Part shown: in pieces, positions 8,016-45,010 of the stretch | Numbering within the stretch: position 1 is the stretch's first letter | Layout: the number at the start of each line of letters is the position of its first letter | Source: Alistipes sp. | GTDB taxonomy: Bacteria; Bacteroidota; Bacteroidia; Bacteroidales; Rikenellaceae | Length of the DNA stretch: 45,474 bases | Assembly (NCBI GenBank): GCA_017555695.1 | Contig: JAFZFX010000020.1 | Location: forward strand, 1 to 45,474 | Direction of reading: 5' to 3' | Position numbers and translations under genes: made by a program | The notes under the pieces: model-generated | The model's input: only the letters and a program-made list of their open reading frames with translations | Databases searched by the model: none | What the model was told of the DNA's origin: nothing

Positions 8016-9107
8016 ATGAATCGCAGATTAATCAATATCATAGCATCCATCGCGCTGATGCTTTTTATCACGCCTAAAACTGCCGTATTCGCCCAGCAGA
8101 GTGTCACACCCGAAAAGATGCAGGAGGTATTTGACGAGATACACGCAACCCACAAATATGGTCTGGTAATAACGGCTCCTACGGCCGAGCAGATGACCGA
8201 CAGCCCGAGCATATTCCGCAAGGGCGGCACTTGGTATATGTACTACATCATATACGACGGTCGTGGCTACGAGACCTGGATGGCATCGAGTAAAGACCTG
8301 TTGCATTGGGAGACTATGGGTCGTGTCATGAGCTTCTCGCCCTCTTCAGATTGGGACAGCAACCAAAAGGCTGGATATCTCGCCCTGGTCGATACGAAGT
8401 GGGGAGGCCGCTACAAGATTACCAAACACAACAAACGCTATTGGATGAGCTACTTGGGTGGTAGCGACACCGGCTATGAGAGTGGCTCGCTGGCGGCTGG
8501 CGTAGCATACACTGCCGACAACCCTACCCGCCCACACGAGTGGCAACGCAACGCTTCGCCCGTACTCTCGCCAAAGGATAGCGACGCCAGCTGGTGGGAC
8601 AACACAAAAATATACAAAAGCACTGTTATACGAGATAAAAAGAGGCTCACGGGGCATAAGTTTGCAATGTACTACAACGCCCAAGGCAACGCTGAGAGAA
8701 TAGGCATAGCCGTGAGCGACGATATGGTGAAATGGAAGCGCTACGGTAAAGAGCCCGTGCTGGACCACCATCGCGGAATAACGGGAGATGCATATCTGCA
8801 AAAGATGGGCAAGCTGTGGGTGATGTTCTATTTCGGCTTTAACTGGAACAGCGAGACATCCAACAAGGCGTGGGACTCGTTTGCCTGCTCATATGACCTT
8901 GTAAATTGGACCGACTGGAACGGAGAGCCACTCATAGAGCCATCTGAGGAGTTTGACGCCCAATACGCCCACAAACCCTGCGTCGTAAAGCACAAGGGCG
9001 TAGTTTACCACTTCTACTGCGCCGTAAGCAAAAGCGGTGGCCGAGGCATCGCCGTAGCCACATCAAAAGATATGGGCAAGAGCAATTTGCATTTCAAAAC
9101 CAGATAA
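8016..9107 (+). CDS. Secreted five-bladed beta-propeller glycosidase-like protein
   Basis: A 363-residue protein with a signal peptide (about residues 1-26, ending AVFA). The body shows repeated beta-propeller blades of the GH43/GH32/GH130 type: DSPSIFRKGGTWYMYY (acidic Asp62), GYETWMASSKDLLHWE, RIGIAVSDDMVKWKRYG, GDAYLQKMGKLWVMFYFGF and GRGIAVATSKDM. The recurring 'W/Y-Y..S.DL..W' blade ends are typical of this superfamily. I cannot assign a numbered GH family; it is likely a periplasmic or surface enzyme trimming plant or host glycans. It lies just outside the AT-rich island, has ordinary codon use and ends at a strong terminator. Confidence 0.85.
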   Translation: MNRRLINIIASIALMLFITPKTAVFAQQSVTPEKMQEVFDEIHATHKYGLVITAPTAEQMTDSPSIFRKGGTWYMYYIIYDGRGYETWMASSKDLLHWETMGRVMSFSPSSDWDSNQKAGYLALVDTKWGGRYKITKHNKRYWMSYLGGSDTGYESGSLAAGVAYTADNPTRPHEWQRNASPVLSPKDSDASWWDNTKIYKSTVIRDKKRLTGHKFAMYYNAQGNAERIGIAVSDDMVKWKRYGKEPVLDHHRGITGDAYLQKMGKLWVMFYFGFNWNSETSNKAWDSFACSYDLVNWTDWNGEPLIEPSEEFDAQYAHKPCVVKHKGVVYHFYCAVSKSGGRGIAVATSKDMGKSNLHFKTR

Positions 9108-15723: not shown

Positions 15724-16707
15724 CTATTTTTGAGTCATTGGAACAATAAGTTCATCACCTACCTCAAGGCGGTAGCTCTTGCGGCCATTAGATTTGTCGC
15801 GCAGGATATTCAGCGGAGCAATGAGCGTCTGGCGAGGATGGATACGGGTGTGGGTATTATGGGCGTGATAGACCATATAGATCCCCTTGCGCGTATTGAG
15901 CAGGGTGTGATGACCCGTACCGACATATCCCTGATGGCGGCGAAGAATGGGGTTACCCTCGTAACGCTCGTATGGGCCGAAGATATTATCAGAAACGGCG
16001 TAGCCCACAGCGTAATCCAGACTTTGGTAGTCGTTGCAACTATATGTGAGGTAGTACTTGCCACGATGCTTAAGAATCATAGGGCCTTCAGACACATAGG
16101 CCTGCACACGCTCCCAATCCTCCTTGGGCTCGAGAATAAGGCGGGCGGTATCTAACTTCAGAGTGCGTAGGTCTGACGATAATTCCGCCATCCAGATACC
16201 ATACGGACCCTCGAAGCGCACCCAAAACATATAGGCCTTGCCACCATCGAAGAAGATGTGTGAATCGATACCCTTCTCTTCGGGCAGATATGGGCGCTTA
16301 TCGCTCTGTACAAATGGGCCACAAGGCGAGTCGGACTCGGCATAGCAGATATGCTCCTCGGCCGAATAGGTCATAACATACTTATCCCCCACTTTATATA
16401 CCTCGGGAGCCCAAAACCACTTTTCGCCCCACACATCGTCCTTATGCAGTGCCAGCTTTTCGCTTGCATTGCCACATCTGTCGCCCCACGAATGGAGGTC
16501 GCGCGAGCGATAGACTACGATGCCGTTATCGGAATGGGTACCGTAGATATAGTACCAATCGCCATCCTGCAACACATAGGGGTCAGCCAACATCAGCTGT
16601 CCATCAACGGCGGCACCATCGGCCGAAGGCTTCGGCTGTGCCATAGCGTTAAAAGAGATAAGGCTCACTAAGAGCAACAAAAGAGATACTCTATATTTCA
16701 TAATCAA
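15724..16707 (-). CDS. Secreted glycoside hydrolase family 43 protein
   Basis: A 327-residue exported GH43 enzyme, a five-bladed beta-propeller usually acting on alpha-L-arabinofuranosyl, beta-xylosyl or related linkages. The signal peptide covers about residues 1-23 (ending AMAQ). The three catalytic acids are visible: Asp42 in LADPYV (base), Asp148 in GIDSHIFFD (pKa modulator) and Glu207 in YVSEGPMIL (acid). It is the last gene of the cytochrome/oxidoreductase cluster, 3 bp after ccsA, so it is probably co-transcribed. That makes its glycan product a candidate substrate for the cluster's oxidoreductase. The linkage cannot be predicted from sequence alone. Confidence 0.93.
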   Translation of the reverse strand: MIMKYRVSLLLLLVSLISFNAMAQPKPSADGAAVDGQLMLADPYVLQDGDWYYIYGTHSDNGIVVYRSRDLHSWGDRCGNASEKLALHKDDVWGEKWFWAPEVYKVGDKYVMTYSAEEHICYAESDSPCGPFVQSDKRPYLPEEKGIDSHIFFDGGKAYMFWVRFEGPYGIWMAELSSDLRTLKLDTARLILEPKEDWERVQAYVSEGPMILKHRGKYYLTYSCNDYQSLDYAVGYAVSDNIFGPYERYEGNPILRRHQGYVGTGHHTLLNTRKGIYMVYHAHNTHTRIHPRQTLIAPLNILRDKSNGRKSYRLEVGDELIVPMTQK

Positions 16708-16710
16708 ATA

Positions 16711-17496
16711 TTAATATGTGTGAACACTTGCGCCCTGCGCCGAAGGCAGGAAGTTGATACCGTACCAGCACATCTGCAACAAAATGAACGAGAATACAAT
16801 CAGCGCGAAGGCGAGATGGTAATCCTCACGCAAACGCGGTCTAAGGTGCATATAGAGCAGATATGAGAGCCAAGTAGCGGCAGCCCAAGTCTCCTTGGGA
16901 TCCCAAGTCCAGAAATCACCCCACGCTTGTTTAGCCCACAGCGCACCCATAATCATACCGAGCGATAAGAACGACCAGCCTATACGCACGAGATTGTCGC
17001 AGACACCCATCTCCTCGCCGGTGGGACGACGCGCGGGGCGGCGCAACCACAGATAGAGAGCAAAGAGCGTAACGGCGCCCATCATAGCATAGGCGAACAT
17101 ATAGACTATCACATGCGGAACAAACCAGACACTCTGCAGTGCGGGCATCAGAGATTTGTTGTGGATTTCAGGCTTGAAGAGGTTGATGCAGATGAACACC
17201 ACCGACATCATAGTACTGAACGAGAGTATCCATTTATAACGCCAGCGCGAATAGACAGCCACACCCGCCAGCGATAGGAAGAAGGTGTACCACAAGCGGG
17301 TCTCGCCCATAGTACGCATAGGAGGACGCTCCAACGAGAGCCACATACCTACGATAAACGAAAGGAAGACAATCGAGCCACAGAGCGAGAGCGATGTAGC
17401 CACCCAACTGCGTCTGCTGCGGAACGCCACAACGGCGCCCGACAACCAAAAAGCCACTGCACAGAGTGCAAACCATATCAAATATTGCCAACTCAT
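16711..17496 (-). CDS. ccsA: Cytochrome c assembly protein CcsA (ResC-like)
   Basis: A 261-residue integral membrane protein of the System II cytochrome c maturation apparatus, which carries heme across the membrane and attaches it to CxxCH motifs. Multiple membrane helices are evident, and the tryptophan-rich heme-handling motif WGDFWTWDPKETW spans residues 192-204. Candidate heme-ligand histidines are His128 (VPHV) and His217. It follows the ResB-like gene by 8 bp, the usual partner order. Its place in a cluster with a tetraheme cytochrome suggests that it matures that protein. Confidence 0.95.
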   Translation of the reverse strand: MSWQYLIWFALCAVAFWLSGAVVAFRSRRSWVATSLSLCGSIVFLSFIVGMWLSLERPPMRTMGETRLWYTFFLSLAGVAVYSRWRYKWILSFSTMMSVVFICINLFKPEIHNKSLMPALQSVWFVPHVIVYMFAYAMMGAVTLFALYLWLRRPARRPTGEEMGVCDNLVRIGWSFLSLGMIMGALWAKQAWGDFWTWDPKETWAAATWLSYLLYMHLRPRLREDYHLAFALIVFSFILLQMCWYGINFLPSAQGASVHTY

Positions 17497-17504
17497 AACT
17501 ACTC

Positions 17505-18755
17505 CTACTTCGATTTAGATTTTACATCGGCAATCTTTGCCTTTGATTTACGAGCAAGCGAGCGGCCACCAGCAGTGACGAACATCACTACACCCGCCGC
17601 AAGCATCAGCCACAAGGCGATATGAACGGCCGAATACCATCCGTCACGCACACACTCCAAGACACTTGTCGTACTCCATCTGCCGCGTGCTGTATCGTAG
17701 CCCACCTGATAGATTCGCCACGCACCAATGCGGGCAGGATGGTTTACCTCGACATTGAACTTCTCGCGCTGACCATCCATATGCTCCACCTCAACACGCG
17801 AGAGGTAGCGCTTGGCGTCACGGCGAGGCATAGCAACAGCAAAGCGCTCACCCAAGAAAAGGTAAGAGGGTTCGAAGATATGGCTACCACAGCTGACCCA
17901 ACCCGAGTACTGCTCGCCCGAGACTTTGTTACAGGCTGTAAGATAGACCGCAGGGGCTGCGCCCGTATGTATCATCTCGCGCCAATCGGTAGCATCAGGC
18001 ATACGACCCGCCATATCAATCATCTGCTCAACGCGCAGATGCCAACCATCGATTTCAGCCTCAGCAGGCAGGCTCTCGACAGAGAGGAAATCCTTTGACG
18101 AGGATTCGTTCTTGGTATCGAGGATATAGAGTTTTGGCGGATATTCATCCATTTTGAACTCCTTGAGTGTAATGGCAAACGGGAGTGTTCGGCTGATACC
18201 ACGCCCATCCGTACCCTCAACAACGGGACGCTCGAGGTGGGTATTAACCGTCACACGCAGTTTATCGGCGCTACCAAAGATTCCACACACCAGAATGACA
18301 AATGTCGCAATGTGTGACATCATTGCCGCCAGACGACGATGGCGCCAATGGTGTAGGTCATCGATAACGGAGAGACCTATGGTGGTAGTGAAATAAAGTA
18401 GCAACAGATTGAACGGCCACGACGAAGTCATACGCGAAAAGCCGAGCAGGCCCACCAAACCCTCGGTGGATGGCTCCTGACGCGTAAGGCCAAAGATGAT
18501 GGTCATAACGACCATAGAGGCGAGCGACGAGGTACTCGCATAGGTATCGGAGAGTTGCTCGACCCAGCGCCACTTCTTGCGCATAGTGTGCAGCAACACC
18601 AGAATATAGAGGTAATTAACCGCGAGAATCAAACCCCACGGATATTGCAGAAAGGAGTTGTTCACATCGCCAACGCATAGTTGCAGCACGACACCCACAG
18701 CAAAGAGCAGCAGACATCGATAGAAGGCGCGACCATATCCCCACGACGAACTCAT
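17505..18755 (-). CDS. Cytochrome c biogenesis protein ResB-like (CcsB)
   Basis: A 416-residue membrane protein, the ResB/Ccs1 half of System II cytochrome c assembly. Membrane helices cluster near the N-terminus (about residues 8-60, 75-170), followed by a large periplasmic domain (about 185-380, with RISRTLPFAITLKEFKMDEYPPKL-type beta structure) and a last helix (about 382-400) before a Lys-rich cytoplasmic tail. ResB acts with CcsA to deliver reduced heme and apocytochrome. Its start lies 78 bp after the TIM-barrel gene. Confidence 0.88.
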   Translation of the reverse strand: MSSSWGYGRAFYRCLLLFAVGVVLQLCVGDVNNSFLQYPWGLILAVNYLYILVLLHTMRKKWRWVEQLSDTYASTSSLASMVVMTIIFGLTRQEPSTEGLVGLLGFSRMTSSWPFNLLLLYFTTTIGLSVIDDLHHWRHRRLAAMMSHIATFVILVCGIFGSADKLRVTVNTHLERPVVEGTDGRGISRTLPFAITLKEFKMDEYPPKLYILDTKNESSSKDFLSVESLPAEAEIDGWHLRVEQMIDMAGRMPDATDWREMIHTGAAPAVYLTACNKVSGEQYSGWVSCGSHIFEPSYLFLGERFAVAMPRRDAKRYLSRVEVEHMDGQREKFNVEVNHPARIGAWRIYQVGYDTARGRWSTTSVLECVRDGWYSAVHIALWLMLAAGVVMFVTAGGRSLARKSKAKIADVKSKSK

Positions 18756-18833
18756 AACAAGATGGTATTAAGACAAGAAGAGGCTCTCCGCAGTGATGCG
18801 AGGAGCCGCCTCCTGTTAGATATTAAGATTCGA

Positions 18834-19733
18834 TTAAGCCATCTCCCACTGTGCGCGGAGCAACTCAACAGCGGCGGGTACTGATACCTCACGCTCGCCC
18901 TTGCAACCGCACTCGAAGCTTACATAGTAGGGATAGTTAATCTCCTTCAAAGCCTTGAGACCTGCTACATAGTTATCTACCTCGCCATCCTCACCAGGCA
19001 TCTGACGATTGCCACGGCTTGCTACATGAACATGCTGGAGATACTCTGCACCTGCTGCCATAAGTGCTGCGTAGTCAGAGGTCTCCTCCTGCATATGCCA
19101 GAAGTCACCCATACACTTAACACCAGCGCTCTTTGAGTCACGGCAAACAGCAGCAGCATCAGCAACCTGACGCATATAGTGGCACTCGCGACGGTTCAGA
19201 GGCTCGAGGATAACAGTTGTGTTGTGCTTCAAAGCGTACTCACCCAACTCGTGCATCTGCTCGCAGAGGTACTGACGAGTCTCCAATGTGTGAGGCAAGC
19301 AAGGCTTCTGACCGTTGAAGGCGGGAACCATAATAACACCTGTTGAACCCAACTCACCAGCAGCAGCGATGATGTCGCGCATAGTAGAGTCGAACTGAGC
19401 CTTTACAGCGGGATCCTCAGCCAAAATGAAGCCATCGAAACCAGCGCAGATAGCAGAAACCTTGATGTTACGGCCAGCCAATGCAGCCTGAATCTCGGGA
19501 ACACGCTTTGCCAAATTACGGCCACCAGGCTCGAAACCTACGATACCGAGGTTCTCCATATAGTCGAACTTCTCGTTAAGGCTACCACCCGGAGCAATAC
19601 CCTCCTGGAATGAGAGCTTGAGCTCGGCTGTGCTCTTCTTTGCGGGAGCGCAAGATGTGAGCAAAGGAGATGATGCTACAGCAACAGTAGCAGCACCGAA
19701 CAACGACTTCTGCAAAAATTCTTTTCTATTCAT
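18834..19733 (-). CDS. Lipoprotein TIM-barrel enzyme (sugar isomerase/epimerase or lyase-like)
   Basis: A 299-residue xylose-isomerase-like TIM barrel. The N-terminus MNRKEFLQKSLFGAATVAVA has a Tat-like (RKEFL) signal and a lipobox LTSC, so C28 should be lipidated and the enzyme lie outside the cytoplasm. Likely divalent-metal ligands are Glu177 (ILEPLNRRE), Asp210 and His213 (MGDFWH), His236 (HVHVAS) and Glu274 (SFECGC). The family includes sugar epimerases and, in Bacteroides, enzymes acting on 3-keto-glycosides. Together with the lipoprotein Gfo/Idh enzyme upstream, a sugar lyase or epimerase role in the envelope is plausible; substrate unknown. It starts 8 bp after the cupin gene. Confidence 0.88.
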   Translation of the reverse strand: MNRKEFLQKSLFGAATVAVASSPLLTSCAPAKKSTAELKLSFQEGIAPGGSLNEKFDYMENLGIVGFEPGGRNLAKRVPEIQAALAGRNIKVSAICAGFDGFILAEDPAVKAQFDSTMRDIIAAAGELGSTGVIMVPAFNGQKPCLPHTLETRQYLCEQMHELGEYALKHNTTVILEPLNRRECHYMRQVADAAAVCRDSKSAGVKCMGDFWHMQEETSDYAALMAAGAEYLQHVHVASRGNRQMPGEDGEVDNYVAGLKALKEINYPYYVSFECGCKGEREVSVPAAVELLRAQWEMA

Positions 19734-19741
19734 AGTAAAAA

Positions 19742-20236
19742 TTATTTCTGTGTAAAATGATTTTCCAACTCTTCGATAAAGCGCTTTACACCCGACTCAT
19801 CATCAACGGCGGGAGTCCACGGAGCGATATTGTCGGCAGAGATGGGTGCATAAGGGCCTTGCTTGACCTCAAAGAGAACAGTGTCGTCCTCCAGCACCAC
19901 AAGACCGTGCCACACGCCAGCATCGATGTCGTAGCCCACACAGTCGCAACCAGCGCCAACGACGCGGCTATCGATGAGGTTACCCTCGCAATCGTAGAAT
20001 GTTACGCCTACCCTACCGCGCAACACCACACAACTCTCCGACCTATCGGGCGAAGAGTGGCGATGAACGGGAAGATAGGTTCCGCGATGCATCACATTAA
20101 TAAGGCGATTGACGGGCTCGTCGGTAGAGCGGTGAAAATTATAGTTCATACGCCCACGCGGAGAGAGGCGAGCCTCGGCGGCCACCGCATCCATCAGGGC
20201 AGAGTCTATATATTGGTATTTACGCTCTTCAAACAT
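19742..20236 (-). CDS. WbuC-like cupin-fold protein
   Basis: A 164-residue single-domain cupin resembling WbuC-family proteins. The first cupin motif is HRGTYLPVHRHSSPDRSESCVVLRG-like (His ligands near residues 50-60 and a Glu in the following strand), the second is DIDAGVWHGLVVLEDDTVLFEVKQGPY-like (His near residue 118). No signal peptide is seen, so it should be cytoplasmic, unlike its neighbours. WbuC proteins occur in polysaccharide loci with no settled activity. It is separated from the upstream oxidoreductase by 83 bp that hold a terminator-like hairpin, and from the TIM-barrel gene by 8 bp. Confidence 0.85.
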   Translation of the reverse strand: MFEERKYQYIDSALMDAVAAEARLSPRGRMNYNFHRSTDEPVNRLINVMHRGTYLPVHRHSSPDRSESCVVLRGRVGVTFYDCEGNLIDSRVVGAGCDCVGYDIDAGVWHGLVVLEDDTVLFEVKQGPYAPISADNIAPWTPAVDDESGVKRFIEELENHFTQK

Positions 20237-20246
20237 AGCTTCTATC

Positions 20247-20296
20247 GAAAAGAAAAAAGGGCAGAGAGGGAGTCATAGGCTCCTACCCCGCCCTCT
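20247..20296 (-). terminator. Possible terminator or attenuator inside the cluster
   Basis: On the minus strand AGAGGG (20291-20296) can pair with CCCTCT (20265-20270), with an alternative GGAG/CTCC hairpin inside, followed by GCCC and TTTTTTCTTTT (20248-20258) just before the cupin start. It could reduce read-through from the oxidoreductase into the cupin gene. Pairing is imperfect. Confidence 0.4.
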
Positions 20297-20319
20297 ATAA
20301 AGTTTAGCTTGTGTACAAA

Positions 20320-21672
20320 TTATTTACCAGGAACCATTACAACGCACTTGTCCATATCCTGCTTGCCAAGCTCCTGCTTGAACTCAGCCAAGTAGTCCTG
20401 CTTAGATGCGCTAATCTCATCCCAATTAACTGTAGCACCTGTGTAAGCGGCCTCACGACCCATCACACCAGCCAAGCAAGAGATACCGCAAGCCTCAGCC
20501 TCATCGTGAGCTGTGCCACGACGGATGTGGTTAACCCAATCAACATGCTCCAAAGTATAGGGGTCGTGCTGCTGGTACTGAGCCTTGGCAGCCTCCTCGT
20601 CGAACTTCCAAACTACATTGCCCTCGAGGTCCTTAATCTCGTGGTGAACGCTGTTCCAAGAACCCTTTGTACCCTGGATGAACTCGCTAACATTGTTAGC
20701 GCAACCGTTGATCTGACGGCACATAGAGTGCATGTGGATACCGTTCTCCATCTCGAAATCTACGCTGAACATATCGTACTGGTCACCAGTAACACGACGG
20801 TGGCGTGCACCAAAAGCAGTAGCCTTAACGGGCTTCAAGCCTGTCATCCACAAGAATACATCGATATTGTGAACATGCTGCTCAACGATGTGGTCACCTG
20901 AGAGCCACTTCCAGTTTACCCAGTCACGAATCATCCACTCTGTGTCAGTCCAAGCCTTGTCGCGGTTCTTGTACCACAACATACCCTGGTTCCAATATAC
21001 ATTACCGCCAGTAATCTCACCGATAAGACCGCTCTGAATCTGCTTGAAAGCCTCAACATAAGGACGCTGGTGGTGACGCTGTGTACCACAAACAACGCTC
21101 AAGTTCTTAGCCTTAGCCTGCTTTGCAGATGCCATAATCATACGGTAACCCTTGGGGTCAACAGCGATGGGCTTCTCGAGGAATGAGTGTACACCCTTCT
21201 CGGTAGCATACTGGAAGTGCAAAGGACGGAATACGGGAGGAGTAGCAACGATAACCATATCTACACCTGAATCGATAACTTTCTTGTAAGCATCGAAACC
21301 TACGAAGCACTTATCCTCGGGAACCTCCTGACGAGCAGACTCCTTAAGGCGTGTACGCAAATCGTTCAAACGGTCAGCGAAAGTATCACCCAAAGCAGCA
21401 ACGGTAATACCGTTAGCAGCTGCCAACAAATTGAATACGGCACCTGAACCACGGCCACCGCAACCGATAACACCAACCTTCAACTCCTTACCATCGTCAG
21501 CCATATCAGGCAACTCGGGGATGTAAGCGCCCTCCAACTGTGCCAGCGGAGTGTAAACGGGGCCCTTCTCCTGACAAGATGTCAGGGCTGCTGATGAACC
21601 AACGAGGCTTGTAACACCTAATACTGCAGACATAGACAAGAAGTCCTTTCTGCTCATTTTGTTCTTGCTCAT
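20320..21672 (-). CDS. Exported Gfo/Idh/MocA-family oxidoreductase (lipoprotein)
   Basis: A 450-residue NAD(P)-dependent oxidoreductase of the Gfo/Idh/MocA family. The N-terminus carries SRKDFL (Tat-like) and lipobox LTSC (residues 30-33), so the folded, cofactor-loaded protein is probably exported by Tat and lipid-anchored. The Rossmann loop GVIGCGGRGSG is at 67-77, the family EKP motif at 166-168, and the catalytic region HIVEQHVHNID has His266 and His268. An exported member cannot exchange free NAD(H), so it would need bound cofactor and another route for electrons; the tetraheme protein encoded 58 bp upstream is an obvious candidate. Substrate unknown, probably a sugar. Confidence 0.92.
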   Translation of the reverse strand: MSKNKMSRKDFLSMSAVLGVTSLVGSSAALTSCQEKGPVYTPLAQLEGAYIPELPDMADDGKELKVGVIGCGGRGSGAVFNLLAAANGITVAALGDTFADRLNDLRTRLKESARQEVPEDKCFVGFDAYKKVIDSGVDMVIVATPPVFRPLHFQYATEKGVHSFLEKPIAVDPKGYRMIMASAKQAKAKNLSVVCGTQRHHQRPYVEAFKQIQSGLIGEITGGNVYWNQGMLWYKNRDKAWTDTEWMIRDWVNWKWLSGDHIVEQHVHNIDVFLWMTGLKPVKATAFGARHRRVTGDQYDMFSVDFEMENGIHMHSMCRQINGCANNVSEFIQGTKGSWNSVHHEIKDLEGNVVWKFDEEAAKAQYQQHDPYTLEHVDWVNHIRRGTAHDEAEACGISCLAGVMGREAAYTGATVNWDEISASKQDYLAEFKQELGKQDMDKCVVMVPGK

Positions 21673-21730
21673 AATAGTAGTAGTTTTATAGTATTAATAG
21701 ATTAAATATCGCCTTAGTTTTAGTTTTGGT

Positions 21731-23263
21731 TTAGTTGGCTGATACGCCCTCGGGCACCTCGCAAACAACGCGGAAGCCGATACCCTTAATGTCAGAGTAC
21801 CACCAGATACTCTTCGGATTCTGCGGGTCGGTCTTAAGCCAAGCATCGTGGCTGGTCTTACCACGCGCTGCGCTACGCAAGTCGGCGGCATCATCAACAT
21901 AGTAACCACCACGAACAACATACTCCTCACCAGTGGCGGGACCCTTGGGATCTACGGCACCGTCCTGCATCTTTGAGTATGCATCCTCGGCATACCAGTC
22001 AGAGCAGTACTCCATAACATTACCCAACATATTCTTCAAACCGAAGGGGTTAGCCTTAACCTTGGCGGGCTCCTGCGAGCGGTTCTTACTGTTATTGGTG
22101 TAGATTACATAGCTATTGATAACAGTTGTATCAACACCGAAGAGGTTGTTCCAGAAACCATCGTTAGTGAACTTCTTGGGGTTACCCTCGAAGAAGTAAG
22201 GAGTAGATGTACCACCACGAGCGGCATACTCCCACTCTGCCTCGGTAGGCAGGCGGTACTTCTTGCCCGTCTTGAGTGACAACCACTGACAGAAAGTCTC
22301 TGCAGCATAGTGTGTCATAGTAATAGCAGGACGAGTGCCCATACCCCAACCCTGATCGGGGAATCCAAACGGAGGTGTAGGACCACTCACTGCGTCGATA
22401 TCCTCGCGAGTATTGTTTGCATAAATAGTCTCGGGAGATGTACGGCCCTCAGACATAGTCTCGTTGAAGAATGCCCAATACTGATCCCAAGTAACCTCCA
22501 ACTCACCCATAAAGAATGGAGAAATGGTTACATTACGCTGGGGAGCCTCGTCAGCCTTATGGAAAGGTTCTTTCTCAGAGCTACCCATAGTGAAGCTACC
22601 GCCAGGGATGGCAATCATGCTGAGTGAAGCCGATGTACCGGGAATAGTCTCAACGAAGTTGCTGAACGATGTAACAGCAGTAGGCTCGGTGAACTTCTCG
22701 GCATTATCATCTACGGGAGCCTCAGTCATTGCCGAGTGCTTGTAGTTGGGGTTATAGTGACCTACATCGAGGTGACAGCTGATACACTGGAGATTCAAAG
22801 CCTCCTCGTTCTCATCGTAGTATAGGTGAGCTGTTACGCCATCGTCGGTGATACCCTCGGGGAAGAGGTTGATGTGGCAAGCCTTACAAGACTCATTGTA
22901 AACGATATTCTTTGCGTACTCCAAATCGCCCTTGCTATCCCAATCAATCTCCTCGGTGTTCTTTGTAAGATATGACCACAAATCCTTTGTACCTGCCGAC
23001 ACCTTGGCCTTAACATACTCTATAGAGCCCTTGGGCGGGAGGTGACAAGATGCACAGTCGGTAACGGTACCGCTGCCATTGTTGTAGTGAACAGACTGCT
23101 TCCAACTAGCATCAGACTCGGGATGCACGTGGCAAGACATACAAGAATCATTCTTCGAAGAATTGACCCACATATAGTTGAAGGCTATCATCAGCGAAAA
23201 GCCCAATACCAATCCAAACAAGAGGGTCAAAAAAATAATCTTTTTACTTCCTGACTTTGACAT
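21731..23263 (-). CDS. Tetraheme NapC/NrfH-type cytochrome c fused to a SUMF1-type domain
   Basis: A 510-residue fusion (an in-frame start 14 codons upstream, at 23305, would give 524; numbering here uses that longer form). A single membrane anchor (residues 21-45) is followed by four CxxCH heme sites: CMSCH 55-59, CASCH 84-88, CKACH 140-144 and CISCH 174-178, as in the NapC/NirT/NrfH quinol dehydrogenases. Residues about 229-520 form a SUMF1/formylglycine-enzyme-like domain (IPGGSFTMGSSE; YRLPTEAEWEYAARGG; GNVMEYCSDWY; IGFRVVCE). The FGE active-site cysteine pair after RGG is missing (VVRGGYYVDDAADLRSAARG), so this is not a formylglycine generator. It heads the cluster with its own promoter; resB and ccsA for heme attachment lie in the same cluster. 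No nrfA follows. Confidence 0.93.
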   Translation of the reverse strand: MSKSGSKKIIFLTLLFGLVLGFSLMIAFNYMWVNSSKNDSCMSCHVHPESDASWKQSVHYNNGSGTVTDCASCHLPPKGSIEYVKAKVSAGTKDLWSYLTKNTEEIDWDSKGDLEYAKNIVYNESCKACHINLFPEGITDDGVTAHLYYDENEEALNLQCISCHLDVGHYNPNYKHSAMTEAPVDDNAEKFTEPTAVTSFSNFVETIPGTSASLSMIAIPGGSFTMGSSEKEPFHKADEAPQRNVTISPFFMGELEVTWDQYWAFFNETMSEGRTSPETIYANNTREDIDAVSGPTPPFGFPDQGWGMGTRPAITMTHYAAETFCQWLSLKTGKKYRLPTEAEWEYAARGGTSTPYFFEGNPKKFTNDGFWNNLFGVDTTVINSYVIYTNNSKNRSQEPAKVKANPFGLKNMLGNVMEYCSDWYAEDAYSKMQDGAVDPKGPATGEEYVVRGGYYVDDAADLRSAARGKTSHDAWLKTDPQNPKSIWWYSDIKGIGFRVVCEVPEGVSAN

Positions 23264-23381
23264 AATTACATTATAATACTCGGAGCCAAGCTCCTCATAG
23301 TTCATTTAATGACACACCACCAACGACCATAAATTAGCCCTCGAAAGGATAAAATATAGGTCGAAATGGTTATATCTCGGT

Positions 23382-23451: not shown

Positions 23452-23494
23452 TGAAAATAAAATTCGGCAAGCCGCAAAAACCGACTTGCCGAAT
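23452..23494 (-). terminator. Terminator after the cytoplasmic Gfo/Idh gene
   Basis: A perfect 10-bp stem (ATTCGGCAAG at 23462-23471 with CTTGCCGAAT at 23485-23494); on the minus strand it is followed by TTTATTTTC. It separates the gene at 23513-24685 from the cytochrome cluster, so the two are distinct transcription units. Confidence 0.85.
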
Positions 23495-23512: not shown

Positions 23513-24685
23513 CTACTTCTCCACCCATTTATGCCACTTTTGGTCTGAATCGTAACCAGCCTGCACCATCGTTTCGACGAACTGCATACCGCGTACTCCA
23601 TCCTCAACATTGGGAAAATCGAGACACTCGGCTGTAAGCTCCTCGCCAGCGGCTTTTGCTCTGACTGTCAGCGCGAAATTGCGATAGATATTGGCAAAGG
23701 CCTCGATGAAACCTTCGGGATGGCCGCCTGGTGTGCGGATATTCCATCGGGCTGCATCATCCAGATAGGCATTACCGCTACCGATCCGCACCTGCTCGGC
23801 GGGTCTATCAGGCCATTTAATATATAGGGTATTAGGTTGTTGTTGCCACCACTCTACGCCACACTTCTCGCCATAGACTCTCAAGCGGAGATTATTCTCC
23901 TCACCCGTAGCGACCTGCGAAGCCTGCAACAGAGCCGTAAAGCCAGCATCGAAACGCAAGAACGCACACGCATCATCATCGACGGGACGACCCTCGACAA
24001 CACGCTGCAAATCGGCACATACCTCAACGACCTTACCACCCGTAACATACTCGGTAAGATGCCAAGCGTGAGTACCGATATCACCCACACATCCGCCCTT
24101 GCCAGCCTGTTTGGGGTCGTTACGCCATACGGCATTGTTACCACCCTTGAGTTCGATACGCTCCGAGAGCCAACCCTGCGAATACTCGACAAACACACGA
24201 CGCACACGACCAAAATCGCCACGCGCAATACGCTGACGCAACTCCTTGATGGCGGGATAAGCGCTATAGACATGAGTTAAAGCAAGCGTGCGACCCGAGG
24301 CATTGACTTTGTCACGCAACATAAGCGCCTCCTCTAACGAGAAGGTCATAGGCTTGTCGATAACCACATCGAACCCTGCATCTAAAGCGGCAGCAGCAGG
24401 CTCATAGTGGAAACGGTTGGGCGTAACAATTGTAACGAAGTCCATACGCTCGCCTTCGGGCAGAGCAGCCTCGCGCTGCAACATCTCCTGCCAAGTGGAG
24501 TAGATACGCTCATCGGGCAGATAGTATGAACGGCCAGAAGAGAGCGAGATTTCGGGATTAATACTGAAGCAGCCGCAGACCAACTCAATCTGGTTCTCCA
24601 TCAATGCGGCACGGCGATGAATAGCACCGATGAACGCATCGCTACCTCCGCCAATCATTCCCATTCGCAGTTTACGGTTTTTCAT
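23513..24685 (-). CDS. Cytoplasmic Gfo/Idh/MocA-family oxidoreductase
   Basis: A 390-residue NAD(P)-dependent oxidoreductase with no signal peptide. The Rossmann loop is MGMIGGGSDAFIG (residues 8-20), the EKP-type motif reads DKPMTF, and the catalytic region is GCVGDIGTHAWHLTEYV. The family oxidises or reduces sugars, inositols and related polyols. It has its own promoter (24777-24807) and terminator (23452-23494), and lies between the GH84 gene and the cytochrome cluster. A link with the exported Gfo/Idh protein, for instance returning an oxidised sugar to its reduced form in the cytoplasm, is possible but only inferred from proximity. Confidence 0.92.
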   Translation of the reverse strand: MKNRKLRMGMIGGGSDAFIGAIHRRAALMENQIELVCGCFSINPEISLSSGRSYYLPDERIYSTWQEMLQREAALPEGERMDFVTIVTPNRFHYEPAAAALDAGFDVVIDKPMTFSLEEALMLRDKVNASGRTLALTHVYSAYPAIKELRQRIARGDFGRVRRVFVEYSQGWLSERIELKGGNNAVWRNDPKQAGKGGCVGDIGTHAWHLTEYVTGGKVVEVCADLQRVVEGRPVDDDACAFLRFDAGFTALLQASQVATGEENNLRLRVYGEKCGVEWWQQQPNTLYIKWPDRPAEQVRIGSGNAYLDDAARWNIRTPGGHPEGFIEAFANIYRNFALTVRAKAAGEELTAECLDFPNVEDGVRGMQFVETMVQAGYDSDQKWHKWVEK

Positions 24686-24938: not shown

Positions 24939-27155
24939 TTAGTTCACCTTTTCGATTTCGAAGACGAAGTCGTCGGGGCCATTAGTGGTGATGCGGTTGC
25001 CATCGCGCTTCCAGAAGCCCTTGCCACCACGGCCAGCGTTCTGGATGCTCCACTTGCCATCCTTCTTAACGAGGATGTAGGTGTGCCAATCGGCATCGTA
25101 AGGATTACGATTCTTGTTTACCCAGAATGTAGCCTTCTCGTTGAGGTAGCGGCCATCCTGCTTATTAGTAATCTTATAGCGACCCGTCTTGATATTCTGC
25201 TCGATTACCCACTGCTGGCGCTGGGGGTTAATCACATCGCGCTCGGTCTGGAATACGGGATAGTCACCTACCCTATCGGCACCAGCGTTTGCGTTGGTCA
25301 GGTACTCGCCATTGACCTTGATGAAATACTCGCCATCCTCGATAACCTGCACGGGCAGATGCTCGAGGCCGTAGGTAAAGTTCTTGCGATAGGTCTTAAT
25401 CAGACCCACAATATTTTCGTTCAACCAAGGAGTGATGACATCGCCACTAACAACGGGCTTCGCCTTGACGATAGAGCCCTCGTAGTTACGGCTGATGATA
25501 GCCTTCTGCTCCTGCTCCAACTTTGATTGAAGGAGATATTGCTCGATAAAGGTTTCGGGCTTGTTGTTCTTCATAGCCTCGGCCATCTGAACATAGGCCA
25601 AACCACGCTCACCCAACAGACGCATACTCTCGACCCAAGGCTTGATTTCGGCCAACATCTCGGGATGGTTCTTCTCATCACCAAGCACCTGCTCGGCTGC
25701 AGAAACCAACTGCTTGAAACTCTCGGTCAGAGCCTCCTTTGAGTCGGTCTTGAAGTTTGGGCTCTCACCCTCACGACGAAGGCCGTGGCCTGTAGGGCCA
25801 AGGTCCACATTATTCTCGCAGAATACGCGGAACGCCTCGGCACAAGTGGGCATCAAAGCACCCAACGCACGCTCCCACGAGCTAACAGCATCGTATGAGG
25901 GCATATTCCAGGTGTAGTCAGCAATGCTGTAGAGGCTCACCTTCGATGCCTCGGCATACTCCATAGGGTTAGAGCAGAAGCCGCTAACCATATCGTTGAT
26001 GTTAAGGCCGTTGCCATATGTCTTACCCATCAACAAACGGCTCTGACAATAGTCGTTTACGGGGTAGTTCAACCAGATGAATGCCTTACGCTTAATCTGG
26101 TCGTTAATCCACTGCATATCGTTCTCCTCAATCATATCCACCACCGAGTTACCAGTCCACATAATACGAACCTCTGGGTACATCTTCGTACCGAGAGTAT
26201 TGAGGTAGTCGCCATTGCTCCAATTCTTGTTATACTGCGAAGGGCACATAATCAAAGGCTCGACATCGTCGTGCTTGCGAACAAACTCGTCGGTGAGGTA
26301 GTTAAGCATCTCGGCCTGCTTGTCGCCACGCGCGCCCTCGCCCCATACATCATCGAAGAAGATAGCGAAAGTGCGTACGCCCAAGTCATACATAGCATTG
26401 AGCTTATTAACCACATTCCCGTAGTCCTCCAAGCCCCACTTGATATCGCCAGCAGGATGGATAGCCCAAACGAACTTTACCTTATTTTTATGAGCCGCAT
26501 CTACCAACTCTTTGAGCTGCTTAGCCTCCTTCTCGGGGTAAGGCACACGCCAGCGCGCACGGTGGTAGGGGTCGTCCTTCGGGCCATAAACATAGGTATT
26601 CATCTTGTACTGACCATAGAAGTCGAACTGGCGCAGACGGTCGCTATGGCTCCAGGGGTTGCCATAGAAGCCCTCGATAACACCACGGCACTCAACACTC
26701 GGATAGTCCTCAACCTGGCACTGCATAACCTTTGGCTGGCTCATCATCTGAACGAAGCTCTGTGCGCCGTAGAATGTACCGCTATTGTCACGACCTGCAA
26801 TAACCACCTTGTCGGGAGTAACCTCGAGGTAATAGCCCTCGCTCGCGGCGGGGATGCTTTTCTGATATTTTGCTACAGCCTTATCGCCCGCCTCACCGAT
26901 GATGATAGGCCTAGCCATAAAAAACTTTCTGGCATTTACCTTGTTGCTCACACCGATAATCTCGAGCTTCTCGGCAAGCAGATGAATGGCGTCAGCATCG
27001 GCCTCGGTGCTACCAACAACATAGAATTTAGTATCGTTGGAAAAAGCCTCTGCGCCCCAAGTCGCCTTCTGGGGCAGCGGCGAAATAGTCACATTCTGAC
27101 CCACAGCCGCAAAGATGGCCATCGAGGCAAAAAGTGTAGTGAATAGTTTTTTCAT
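24939..27155 (-). CDS. Secreted beta-N-acetylglucosaminidase, GH84 (O-GlcNAcase type)
   Basis: A 738-residue exported GH84 enzyme, closely resembling bacterial O-GlcNAcases such as the Bacteroides BtGH84. It removes beta-linked GlcNAc by substrate-assisted catalysis, most likely from mucin or other host glycans. A signal peptide (about residues 1-19) is followed by an N-terminal GH20b-like domain (20-150), the catalytic barrel (150-440) with GVIEGFYGNPWS and the catalytic Asp pair D268-D269 in FAIFFDDVWGEG, a helical domain, and a C-terminal beta domain (about 610-738) probably involved in sugar binding. Single gene with its own terminator; a possible -7 box TATTTTTG lies at 27259-27266 (minus). 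Confidence 0.96.
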   Translation of the reverse strand: MKKLFTTLFASMAIFAAVGQNVTISPLPQKATWGAEAFSNDTKFYVVGSTEADADAIHLLAEKLEIIGVSNKVNARKFFMARPIIIGEAGDKAVAKYQKSIPAASEGYYLEVTPDKVVIAGRDNSGTFYGAQSFVQMMSQPKVMQCQVEDYPSVECRGVIEGFYGNPWSHSDRLRQFDFYGQYKMNTYVYGPKDDPYHRARWRVPYPEKEAKQLKELVDAAHKNKVKFVWAIHPAGDIKWGLEDYGNVVNKLNAMYDLGVRTFAIFFDDVWGEGARGDKQAEMLNYLTDEFVRKHDDVEPLIMCPSQYNKNWSNGDYLNTLGTKMYPEVRIMWTGNSVVDMIEENDMQWINDQIKRKAFIWLNYPVNDYCQSRLLMGKTYGNGLNINDMVSGFCSNPMEYAEASKVSLYSIADYTWNMPSYDAVSSWERALGALMPTCAEAFRVFCENNVDLGPTGHGLRREGESPNFKTDSKEALTESFKQLVSAAEQVLGDEKNHPEMLAEIKPWVESMRLLGERGLAYVQMAEAMKNNKPETFIEQYLLQSKLEQEQKAIISRNYEGSIVKAKPVVSGDVITPWLNENIVGLIKTYRKNFTYGLEHLPVQVIEDGEYFIKVNGEYLTNANAGADRVGDYPVFQTERDVINPQRQQWVIEQNIKTGRYKITNKQDGRYLNEKATFWVNKNRNPYDADWHTYILVKKDGKWSIQNAGRGGKGFWKRDGNRITTNGPDDFVFEIEKVN

Positions 27156-42724: not shown

Positions 42725-45010
42725 ATGAAAACCAAACTTTTAACACTGCTCGCCGTGCTTTCTACTGCAATAGCATCGGCAGAAAAGAGCGATTTCTCGC
42801 CGGTTGATTATGTCAGCCCGCTGGTGGGTACACAATCTGTACACGCCTTCTCAACAGGTAACACCTACCCCGCCATCGCACGCCCCTGGGGTATGAACTT
42901 CTGGACTCCCCAGACTGGTAAGATGGGTGATGGTTGGGCTTATGTCTATACCGAGCAAAAGATTCGCGGCTTCAAGCAGACTCACCAGCCCAGCCCGTGG
43001 ATTAACGACTACGGTCAGTTCTCAATTATGCCCGTAGTGGGTGCGCCCGAGTTCGACCAGGATAAGCGCGCAAGCTGGTTTGGCCACAAGAGCGAGGTGG
43101 CAAAGGCTTACTACTACAAGGTATATCTTGCCGAGTATGATGTAGTTACCGAGTTTTCACCCACCGACCGTGCTGCGTTGTTCCGCTTCACTTTCCCCGA
43201 GTCTAATGACTCATACATCGTAGTGGATGCTTTCGATCGCGGCTCTTACATCAACATCGACAAGGAGAACAACCGCATCACCGGTTACACTACACGCAAC
43301 TCGGGTGGTGTGACTGACAACTTCCGCAACTACTTCGTGCTGGAGTTTGACAAGCCTTTCGAGTATGTAAGCACATTCGCTAACGGCAAGCTCAAGAAGG
43401 ATGCAACCGAGCAGAAGGATAACCATGTGGGTGCCGTTATCGGCTTCAAAACCAAGAAGGGCGAGAAGGTACACGCCCGCGTAGCATCGTCATTCATCAG
43501 CCACGAACAGGCTGCACTCAACCTCAAGGAGTTGGGTAATGACTCACTGGAGGAGTTGGCCGAAAAGGGTCGTAAGGCTTGGAACGAGGTGTTGGGTCGC
43601 ATCGAGGTTGATGGTGGTAACCTCGACCAGTACCGCACATTCTACTCTTGTCTGTACCGCGCTACTCTCTTCCCGCAGAAGCACTATGAGATTAACGCCA
43701 ACGGCGAACCCGTACACTACAGCCCCCACAACGGCAAAATCGAGAAGGGTTACTTCTACACAGGCACAGGTTTCTGGGATACATTCCGTAGCCTCTTCCC
43801 TCTGCTGAACATACTCTACCCCGAGGAGAACAAGAAGATGCAGGATGGCTTTGTAAATGTATATCTCGAGAGTGGTTTCTTCCCCGAGTGGTCGAGCCCT
43901 GGTCACCGTGGCTGTATGGTTGGTAACAACTCTGCTTCGGTTTTGGCTGACGCTTACCTCAAGGGCGTAAAGGTTGATAACCCAAAGGCTATGTACGAGG
44001 GTATGCTGCACGGCGCAAACAATGTTCACCCCACAGTATCATCTTCGGGCCGTCTGGGTCACGAGTACTACAATACATTGGGCTATGTACCATACGATGT
44101 AAAGATTAGAGAGAACGCAGCCCGTACACTCGAATACGCATATAACGACTGGTGTATCTATAAGGTTGCTAAGGAGATGAATCGCCCGCAGGAGGAGATT
44201 GACCTCTACGCAAAGCGCGCTATGAACTACCGCAATCTGTTCGACCCCGAGACTAAGTTGATGCGCGGCAAGAACAAGGACGGCAAGTTTATGGCTCCCT
44301 TCTCACCTCTGAAGTGGGGTGACGCCTTCACCGAGGGTAACAGCTGGCACTACACTTGGTCGGTATTCCACGACCCGCAGGGTCTGATTGATTTGATGGG
44401 CGGCGACGAGGAGTTTGTTGAGATGCTCGACTCGGTATTTACCGTTCCTCCTATCTTCGATGAGAGCTACTACGGCGGTGTAATCCACGAGATTCGCGAG
44501 ATGACAGTGATGAATATGGGTAACTATGCTCACGGTAATCAGCCCGCACAGCATATGATCTACCTCTACAACTACGCTGGCCAGCCCTGGAAGGCGCAGT
44601 ATTGGGTGCGTCAGGTTATCGACCGCTTCTACTCGCCCACTCCCGACGGCTATTGCGGTGACGAGGATAACGGCCAGACTTCGGCTTGGTATATCTTCTC
44701 ATCTCTGGGCTTCTACCCCGTATGCCCCGCATCGGATGAGTATATTATGGGTGCACCCCTGTTCAAGAAGGCTACAATCCACCTGCCCAACGGCAAGAAG
44801 TTCGAGATTAACGCACCCGAGAACAGCACAGAGAACATCTACATCGAGAATATGAAACTCAATGGCAAGCGCTACACACGCAACTACATCACTCATAGCG
44901 ATTTGATGCGTGGCGGCAAAATGGATGTGGATATGAGCAACACACCTAACCTCAAGCGAGGCACAACAGACGGCGACCGTCCCTACTCATTCTCTCGCGA
45001 CGAGAAGTAA
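42725..45010 (+). CDS. Secreted GH92 alpha-mannosidase
   Basis: A 761-residue exported GH92 enzyme; the family removes terminal alpha-mannose (mainly alpha-1,2 and others) from host N-glycans or yeast mannan in a calcium-dependent inverting reaction. Signal peptide about residues 1-19. N-terminal beta-sandwich (VDYVSPLVGTQS; WSPQTG-like region), then the (alpha/alpha)6 barrel with FFPEWSSPGHRGCMVG, GNQPAQHMIYLYNYAGQPWK and GDEDNGQTSAWYIFSSLGFYPVCP, the last carrying the acidic catalytic residues. Specificity within GH92 cannot be read here. It ends at a strong terminator. Confidence 0.96.
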   Translation: MKTKLLTLLAVLSTAIASAEKSDFSPVDYVSPLVGTQSVHAFSTGNTYPAIARPWGMNFWTPQTGKMGDGWAYVYTEQKIRGFKQTHQPSPWINDYGQFSIMPVVGAPEFDQDKRASWFGHKSEVAKAYYYKVYLAEYDVVTEFSPTDRAALFRFTFPESNDSYIVVDAFDRGSYINIDKENNRITGYTTRNSGGVTDNFRNYFVLEFDKPFEYVSTFANGKLKKDATEQKDNHVGAVIGFKTKKGEKVHARVASSFISHEQAALNLKELGNDSLEELAEKGRKAWNEVLGRIEVDGGNLDQYRTFYSCLYRATLFPQKHYEINANGEPVHYSPHNGKIEKGYFYTGTGFWDTFRSLFPLLNILYPEENKKMQDGFVNVYLESGFFPEWSSPGHRGCMVGNNSASVLADAYLKGVKVDNPKAMYEGMLHGANNVHPTVSSSGRLGHEYYNTLGYVPYDVKIRENAARTLEYAYNDWCIYKVAKEMNRPQEEIDLYAKRAMNYRNLFDPETKLMRGKNKDGKFMAPFSPLKWGDAFTEGNSWHYTWSVFHDPQGLIDLMGGDEEFVEMLDSVFTVPPIFDESYYGGVIHEIREMTVMNMGNYAHGNQPAQHMIYLYNYAGQPWKAQYWVRQVIDRFYSPTPDGYCGDEDNGQTSAWYIFSSLGFYPVCPASDEYIMGAPLFKKATIHLPNGKKFEINAPENSTENIYIENMKLNGKRYTRNYITHSDLMRGGKMDVDMSNTPNLKRGTTDGDRPYSFSRDEK

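Follow-up and report, generated by a model that had tools for sequence, protein, structure and literature searches.

The window, meaning the whole stretch of DNA analyzed here, comprises 45,474 nt of Alistipes sp. (GCA_017555695.1, contig JAFZFX010000020.1, positions 1 to 45,474). It carries a minus-strand gene cluster that begins with a tetraheme cytochrome domain fused to a SUMF1-like domain (the fusion), followed by a lipoprotein Gfo/Idh/MocA oxidoreductase (Gfo1) and, after a cupin, by a lipoprotein TIM barrel. As read from sequence, the gene set suggests an extracytoplasmic sugar breakdown plugged into electron transport. A preliminary description had placed seven same-strand open reading frames (ORFs) at 15724..23305, with gaps of at most 83 bp. 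All seven were found on the minus strand at these coordinates, separated by 58, 83, 8, 78, 8 and 3 bp in transcription order, and the families assigned to them were borne out by Pfam or NCBIfam profile matches in every case. The upper boundary needs revision: the first ORF opens at 23305, but 23260 is the more likely start of the fusion because its relatives begin at this internal methionine (MSKS). The genes and features of the locus, all on the minus strand (twin-arginine translocation is abbreviated as Tat and glycoside hydrolase family as GH), are as follows.

21731..23260, minus strand: fusion of a tetraheme and a SUMF1-like domain
22745..23248, minus strand: NapC/NirT/NrfH-type domain of the fusion (PF03264, four CXXCH), with an N-terminal stretch that looks by eye like a membrane helix
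23129-23143, 23042-23056, 22874-22888 and 22772-22786, minus strand: the four CXXCH heme motifs (motif scan)
21851..22621, minus strand: SUMF1-like (FGE-fold) domain of the fusion, without the two FGE catalytic cysteines (domain match and alignment)
20320..21672, minus strand: Gfo1, a Tat-type lipoprotein Gfo/Idh/MocA oxidoreductase (GxGxRG and EKP motifs)
18834..19733, minus strand: lipoprotein TIM barrel, AP_endonuc_2 (profile match, likeness to PDB 3kws)
17505..18755, minus strand: ResB-like cytochrome c maturation protein (Pfam match)
16711..17496, minus strand: CcsA, Cytochrom_C_asm (PF01578; Pfam match)
19742..20236, minus strand: WbuC-family cupin, accessory (profile match)
15724..16707, minus strand: secreted GH43 hydrolase, peripheral and outside the conserved core (profile match, synteny)
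23513..24685, minus strand: Gfo2, a Gfo/Idh protein without an evident signal peptide, upstream of the fusion (profile match)
23462..23494, minus strand: terminator-like hairpin of 13 pairs with a U tract, separating Gfo2 from the fusion (z -4.13 for its stretch)
20247..20296, minus strand: hairpin with a T run after it, in the gap from Gfo1 to the cupin (z -2.55)
18756..18833, minus strand: gap with a strong hairpin and no U tract, between the TIM barrel and ResB (z -4.42)

The fusion matches Cytochrom_NNT (2e-25) and, in its C-terminal part, FGE-sulfatase/SUMF1 (PF03781, 1.8e-40). Its PF03264 match (90 bits) lies over the cut-off and is the only one in the window's genome, and with its four CXXCH motifs the protein belongs to the NapC/NirT/NrfH family; the tetraheme domain also gave a profile match to the NrfH structure 2j7a (1.6e-5). 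It is not an NrfH proper, as it reached 62.4 bits where the TIGR03153 equivalog cut-off is 134. NrfHA-type nitrite respiration was rejected, since a profile search found NrfA in none of the 80 genomes examined. Further multiheme proteins are possible in the window's genome, where 100 of 242 CXXCH places were covered by the scan. For the SUMF1 domain, profile matches to the FGE, PvdO and PorK structures were obtained. However, when the FGE cysteine positions (after the RGG motif) were taken from an alignment to 6s07, no cysteine was found at either active-site position in any of 95 aligned SUMF1 domains, and a sulfatase-activating role was rejected for this reason. Nor is the domain a GldK/PorK lipoprotein of the type IX secretion system, with 98 bits against an equivalog cut-off of 350. 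The AlphaFold model of the fusion was not usable (mean predicted local distance difference test, pLDDT, 55.5).

When 150 genomes of the family were searched, a full-length fusion was found in 30 of them including the window's own, matches that cover SUMF1 alone being excluded from this count. Of the 29 family relatives, 26 have Gfo1 adjoining the fusion in the same orientation (with a gap of up to about 600 bp) and 25 have the TIM barrel near it; at L068 the contig ends before the TIM position. A collection of named organisms, in which the best 80 of 546 confirmed loci were kept, contributed 14 fusions and 66 SUMF1 proteins without tetraheme domain. Here Gfo1 adjoins the fusion in all 14 full-length loci (at L075 the copy is upstream and 42% identical) and the TIM barrel is on the same strand in six. 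The fusions of this collection come from Parabacteroides, Tannerella, Dysgonamonadaceae, Sunxiuqinia, Maribellus and other Bacteroidales, Bacteroidia or Bacteroidetes, and the Parabacteroides genomes (L072 and L076) carry the trio of fusion, Gfo1 and TIM barrel. In a third set of 395 genomes from the phylum, a full-length fusion was present in three, namely the window's own genome, G496 from the same order and G494 (L152), which shares only the phylum; the fusion is thus not strictly confined to one order. Gfo1 is adjacent in all three.

Overall, 33 of 43 fusion loci have a TIM barrel gene within 5 kb, compared with 14 of 51 other loci of the SUMF1 clade and none of 15 low-scoring SUMF1 loci. 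The conserved core consists of three genes (fusion, Gfo1 and TIM barrel), and its recurrence in many genomes is more than chance would give. The synteny search that the preliminary description had called for shows an arrangement that is wide across genomes and not peculiar to this one, contrary to the outcome that it had named as a refutation. The other genes follow the fusion less closely. CcsA and ResB are adjacent in 11 of the 29 family relatives (all 10 genus-mates and L066), and a WbuC-type cupin is near the fusion in 14. GH43 had been counted as a member of the system, but a same-strand copy nearby is limited to 6 of 10 genus-mates, and the 19 other family loci have none at that place; on this synteny it was rejected as a core member.

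We also observed some local variants of the neighborhood. In Tannerellaceae, a gene of about 240-290 aa directly follows the TIM barrel (L071, 11106-11971; L072, 11874-12602); the L072 copy has no Pfam match and the L071 copy ends, by eye, like a LuxR regulator. Loci L063 and L064 share a lipoprotein-like gene of 547-548 aa directly downstream of the fusion. At L070, a fused CcsBA gene comes immediately after the TIM barrel.

The partnership with Gfo1 extends to SUMF1 proteins without tetraheme domain. In the named collection, a same-strand Gfo1-type gene no more than 700 bp away accompanies 37 of the 51 that score at least 140 bits against the window's SUMF1 domain and 1 of the 15 below 140 bits; this line was drawn after the data had been seen. 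The count of 37 was obtained with Gfo queries drawn from six of the loci themselves, and it becomes 33 of 51 with the window's Gfo1 as the sole query; one of the 37, at L128, is a weak match (61 bits), and among the 51 the contig of L087 ends too early. A second draw, from the 395 phylum genomes, yielded 30 loci, 27 of them without tetraheme domain, and a Gfo1-type neighbor was present in 23 of the 27, though this draw is not fully independent of the first (L171 is identical and L168 95% identical to L113). In the same genomes, all 38 with a SUMF1-clade match (E<1e-45) were among the 64 with a Gfo1-clade match (E<=1e-90), and 33 of these 38 have both genes next to each other on one strand. One of the remaining five, G320, has a Gfo1-type gene adjoining SUMF1 on the opposite strand. 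SUMF1-Gfo pairs were found in Bacteroidota, Planctomycetota, Verrucomicrobiota, Acidobacteriota, Rhodothermota and Balneolota, and many of the SUMF1 proteins without tetraheme domain start, by eye, with a signal-peptide-like stretch.

The 44 tetraheme fusions group as a single clade, with a support of 100, in a tree built from 95 SUMF1 domains; this is a quick tree, supported by the SH-like approximate likelihood ratio test only and with G494 (L152) left out. By this tree, the NapC/NrfH tetraheme domain joined the SUMF1 clade once, in Bacteroidales and related bacteria. Five Verrucomicrobiota SUMF1 proteins (L088, L095, L100, L101 and L116) carry one or two N-terminal PSCyt1 domains instead, and heme was accordingly fused to the clade at least twice, as NapC/NrfH and as PSCyt1 domains. 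Since only L100 of these five loci has a same-strand Gfo1-type neighbor, the argument from convergence is weakened.

Gfo1 has the Rossmann GxGxxG motif, the EKP lysine and the C-terminal alpha/beta fold of the Gfo/Idh/MocA proteins. Its predicted model (mean pLDDT 88) gave 383 PDB matches at E<=0.001, which place it in the Gfo/Idh fold at large and do not discriminate specificity. The best PDB match by single sequence was glucuronide-3-dehydrogenase (2.6e-9). From its motifs Gfo1 may bind NAD(P) and act on a sugar or cyclitol. The Tat-like signal and the lipobox LTSC previously noted in Gfo1 and in the TIM barrel were seen in both, each with the RK variant of the twin-arginine motif. Among 39 fusion-linked Gfo1 proteins, 27 have RR, 10 have RK and two have neither by pattern, and RR is also present in 29 of 33 Gfo partners of SUMF1 proteins without tetraheme domain. 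TatC was detected in 29 of 30 fusion genomes, the exception being the 68%-complete G051, and in 5 of 10 others. With the motif and TatC both present, Gfo1 is predicted to be exported by Tat.

For cytochrome c maturation, a System II pair (ResB and CcsA, both over their Pfam cut-offs) is encoded in the cluster; CcsA reaches 117 bits, below the TIGR03144 cut-off of 188, and ResB has no NCBIfam match. PF01578 matches once in the window's genome, at this CcsA. Ccs (PF01578) was found in 30 of 30 fusion genomes against 24 of 50 others, the latter being a non-random set from the listed part of the family search, in which 120 of 150 genomes lack a full fusion. These counts and the adjacency given above agree with the proposal that ResB and CcsA mature the tetraheme protein. 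The retention of four CXXCH motifs in 43 of 43 full-length relatives, together with a maturation gene in every fusion genome, argues for working hemes. In all six fusion-negative genus-mates inspected (L191-L196, of 14 such genus-mates with Ccs), the neighbor of CcsA is another protein, about 454-487 aa long and with three CXXCH motifs, a candidate for another envelope cytochrome. Ccs genes thus travel with a client.

We also analyzed the link to 3-keto-sugar metabolism that had been suggested from the pairing of the TIM barrel with Gfo1. The TIM barrel is closest to PDB 3kws (6e-124) and then to 6wn6, a 3-keto-D-glucoside 4-epimerase (1.1e-25). All 30 of the fusion genomes have a 3-keto-disaccharide hydrolase domain (PF06439) at E<1e-40, compared with 9 of 50 others; within the genus the counts are 11 of 11 and 6 of 36. 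At E<=0.001, the counts over all these genomes are 30 of 30 and 17 of 50. The 1e-40 line was drawn after the data had been seen, and Fisher tests on these co-occurrences ignore the relatedness of the genomes. In one genome (G003, locus L058), the operon includes a hydrolase with two PF06439 domains, encoded between Gfo1 and the TIM barrel, and the window's genome has a 65% identical homologue on its contig C1. Together, the PDB neighbors, the co-occurrence and this operon uphold the link.

A second relevant operon was found on contig C45 of the window's genome (L184, 7485-12170), with tatC, a TIM barrel, a glycoside 3-dehydrogenase and a 3-keto-disaccharide hydrolase in this order on the minus strand. 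The dehydrogenase, a paralogue of Gfo1, reaches 857 bits with the BT_2158 family (NF058561, cut-off 750). With its exported Gfo/Idh protein, its TIM barrel, the co-occurring hydrolases and this BT_2158-family operon elsewhere in the genome, the system resembles the Bacteroides BT2158 3-keto-glycoside pathway. It differs in that Gfo1 itself is outside the BT_2158 family, and the Bacteroides BT2158 gene set has, to our knowledge, no SUMF1 or tetraheme partner. As a side observation, at least 13 of the 29 fusion genomes with TatC have tatC no more than 6 kb away from a PF06439 gene, judged by eye among the listed places.

The reading that we favor, though only tentatively and at a little less than an even chance, is a periplasmic sugar-redox module in which electron exchange serves periplasmic 3-keto-sugar metabolism, a respiratory arrangement. 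Gfo1 would oxidise a glycoside or sugar at C3, or catalyze the reverse, with tightly bound NAD(P), and the SUMF1 domain would be its docking partner. The TIM barrel would convert or cleave the keto-sugar. The tetraheme domain would pass electrons between Gfo1 and the quinone pool, the hemes presumably taking them from bound NAD(P)H. If so, periplasmic 3-keto-glycoside catabolism need not be redox-neutral. In favor of this reading are the adjacency of the fusion and Gfo1, the recurrent SUMF1-Gfo pair, the two kinds of heme fusion, the co-occurrence of Ccs, TatC and PF06439, the operon on contig C45, and the PDB matches of the TIM barrel and of Gfo1 by single sequence. A more specific version, which we regard as conceivable but rather doubtful, is that SUMF1 is a novel redox adaptor that directly couples an exported nicotinamide sugar dehydrogenase, whose cofactor does not exchange, to a membrane multiheme cytochrome, that 3-keto catabolism is respired in this way and not redox-balanced, and that the heme-free pairs of other lineages are ancestral with hemes added more than once.

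Several observations weigh against the favored reading. Fusion loci L062, L063 and L064 lack a neighboring Gfo1 and have other genes downstream. Of the 51 clade members that are heme-free or carry PSCyt1, 46 have no heme motif upstream in the SUMF1 protein, so the SUMF1-Gfo pair does not require heme. Of 43 fusion loci, just one has a PF06439-like gene within 5 kb, as do 2 of 51 others, and strong PF06439 matches occur in fusion-less genomes as well, in the nine of 50 counted above. As to Gfo1, inositol dehydrogenases lead when the A2 profile is used, glucuronide-3-dehydrogenase being about 30th, and it has only 24.5 bits with NF058561, far from the cut-off of 750. No flavin or Fe-S family match that might bridge hydride and one-electron hemes was found among the seven products. 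A search for the quinone gene menA (TIGR00751) gave no match in the window's genome, which is 88% complete, while a Bacteroides control genome was positive; this search covered a single quinone gene with one family model. Finally, excerpts of PMC11239390 describe a gut Gfo/Idh enzyme, D3dgpA (DgpA), that holds bound NAD(H) and has it re-oxidised by 3-oxo-sugars in a redox-neutral ping-pong.

The preliminary description had argued that an exported Gfo/Idh enzyme needs a way to recycle its bound cofactor, which the cytochrome would offer. A need for the cytochrome is not supported, because SUMF1-Gfo pairs occur heme-free in many loci of several phyla and D3dgpA, by the same excerpts, re-oxidises its NAD(H) with 3-oxo-sugars.

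The strongest competitor, which we consider somewhat unlikely, is that Gfo1 is redox-neutral and recycles bound NAD(P) between two sugars, with the tetraheme-SUMF1 protein of the same operon handing electrons elsewhere. Gfo1 shares the Gfo/Idh fold with glucose-fructose oxidoreductase (GFOR), aldose-aldose oxidoreductase and DgpA, and the first two are among its structural matches. GFOR is exported by Tat with its nucleotide kept bound, and both GFOR and aldose-aldose oxidoreductase recycle the cofactor with a second substrate. In addition, most SUMF1-Gfo pairs are without a heme domain. However, heme is fused precisely to the SUMF1 clade that pairs with Gfo1, with a second heme type in Verrucomicrobiota, and across the 29 family loci Gfo1 is the gene most often found beside the fusion. 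We know of no SUMF1 or cytochrome partner for GFOR, aldose-aldose oxidoreductase or DgpA. Under the respiratory reading Gfo1 would differ from DgpA, whose cofactor is recycled with a second substrate (PMC11239390, in excerpt).

Electrons might also flow outward, so that quinol reduces the hemes and the system, as a small respiratory reductase, acts on a keto-sugar or some other acceptor in the periplasm. NapC/NrfH proteins are indeed quinol dehydrogenases that feed periplasmic reductases, and the fusion resembles them in its membrane-helix-like N-terminus, its four CXXCH motifs and the linked ResB/CcsA genes. As the usual NrfH partner NrfA is missing in all 80 genomes, the acceptor would have to be another one. 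Unlike NrfH and NapC, the window's protein is fused to SUMF1 and has a nicotinamide-type enzyme as its partner in place of NrfA or NapA. We consider this direction improbable, since by textbook potentials electrons from menaquinol would have to climb about 0.25 V to reach NAD+ and the associated genes (3-keto-disaccharide hydrolases and glycoside hydrolases) look catabolic. That SUMF1 is a mere scaffold or assembly factor (PorK/GldK-like) holding Gfo1 at the membrane or envelope, with the hemes sensing or a relic, is very unlikely, for although SUMF1 does match GldK/PorK and all 95 aligned domains lack the FGE cysteines, the heme motifs and the maturation gene are kept without exception.

Periplasmic oxidation of sugars at C3 coupled to cytochrome c is known from the Agrobacterium-type flavin glucoside 3-dehydrogenases, which differ in their flavoprotein chemistry and belong to an unrelated protein family. 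For the re-oxidation of a non-exchangeable cofactor, a published answer is the redox-neutral ping-pong of one gut Gfo/Idh enzyme (PMC11239390, as excerpted). The respiratory reading, if true, would offer a second answer through the linked multiheme protein, and it can be tested in Parabacteroides. The window's SUMF1 domain has the FGE fold in common with FGE, PvdO and PorK/GldK, but its clade is without the FGE catalytic cysteines and its frequent genomic partner is a Gfo/Idh enzyme. The analysis thereby gives a candidate partner to SUMF1 proteins without these cysteines, which are probably named after FGE. The component families are known, while the excerpts of open-licence full texts searched gave no account of either the fusion or the SUMF1-Gfo pair; the combination appears undescribed in that literature.

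With regard to the transcription unit, the hairpin before the cupin, which had been noted as a possible split of the cluster, folds better than shuffled sequences (2 of 200 shuffles were as good). It is followed by a T run, yet it is absent from the list of a simple terminator scan. The hairpin between the TIM barrel and ResB is possibly an mRNA processing or stability element. Gfo2 adjoins the fusion in 4 of 10 genus-mates and on the Tannerella contig (L071); it was rejected as the first gene of the operon in the window's genome because the terminator-like hairpin at 23462-23494 intervenes. More glycan enzymes are encoded in the window, namely a GH43/GH130-like protein (8016-9107), a GH84 (24939-27155) and a GH92 (42725-45010).

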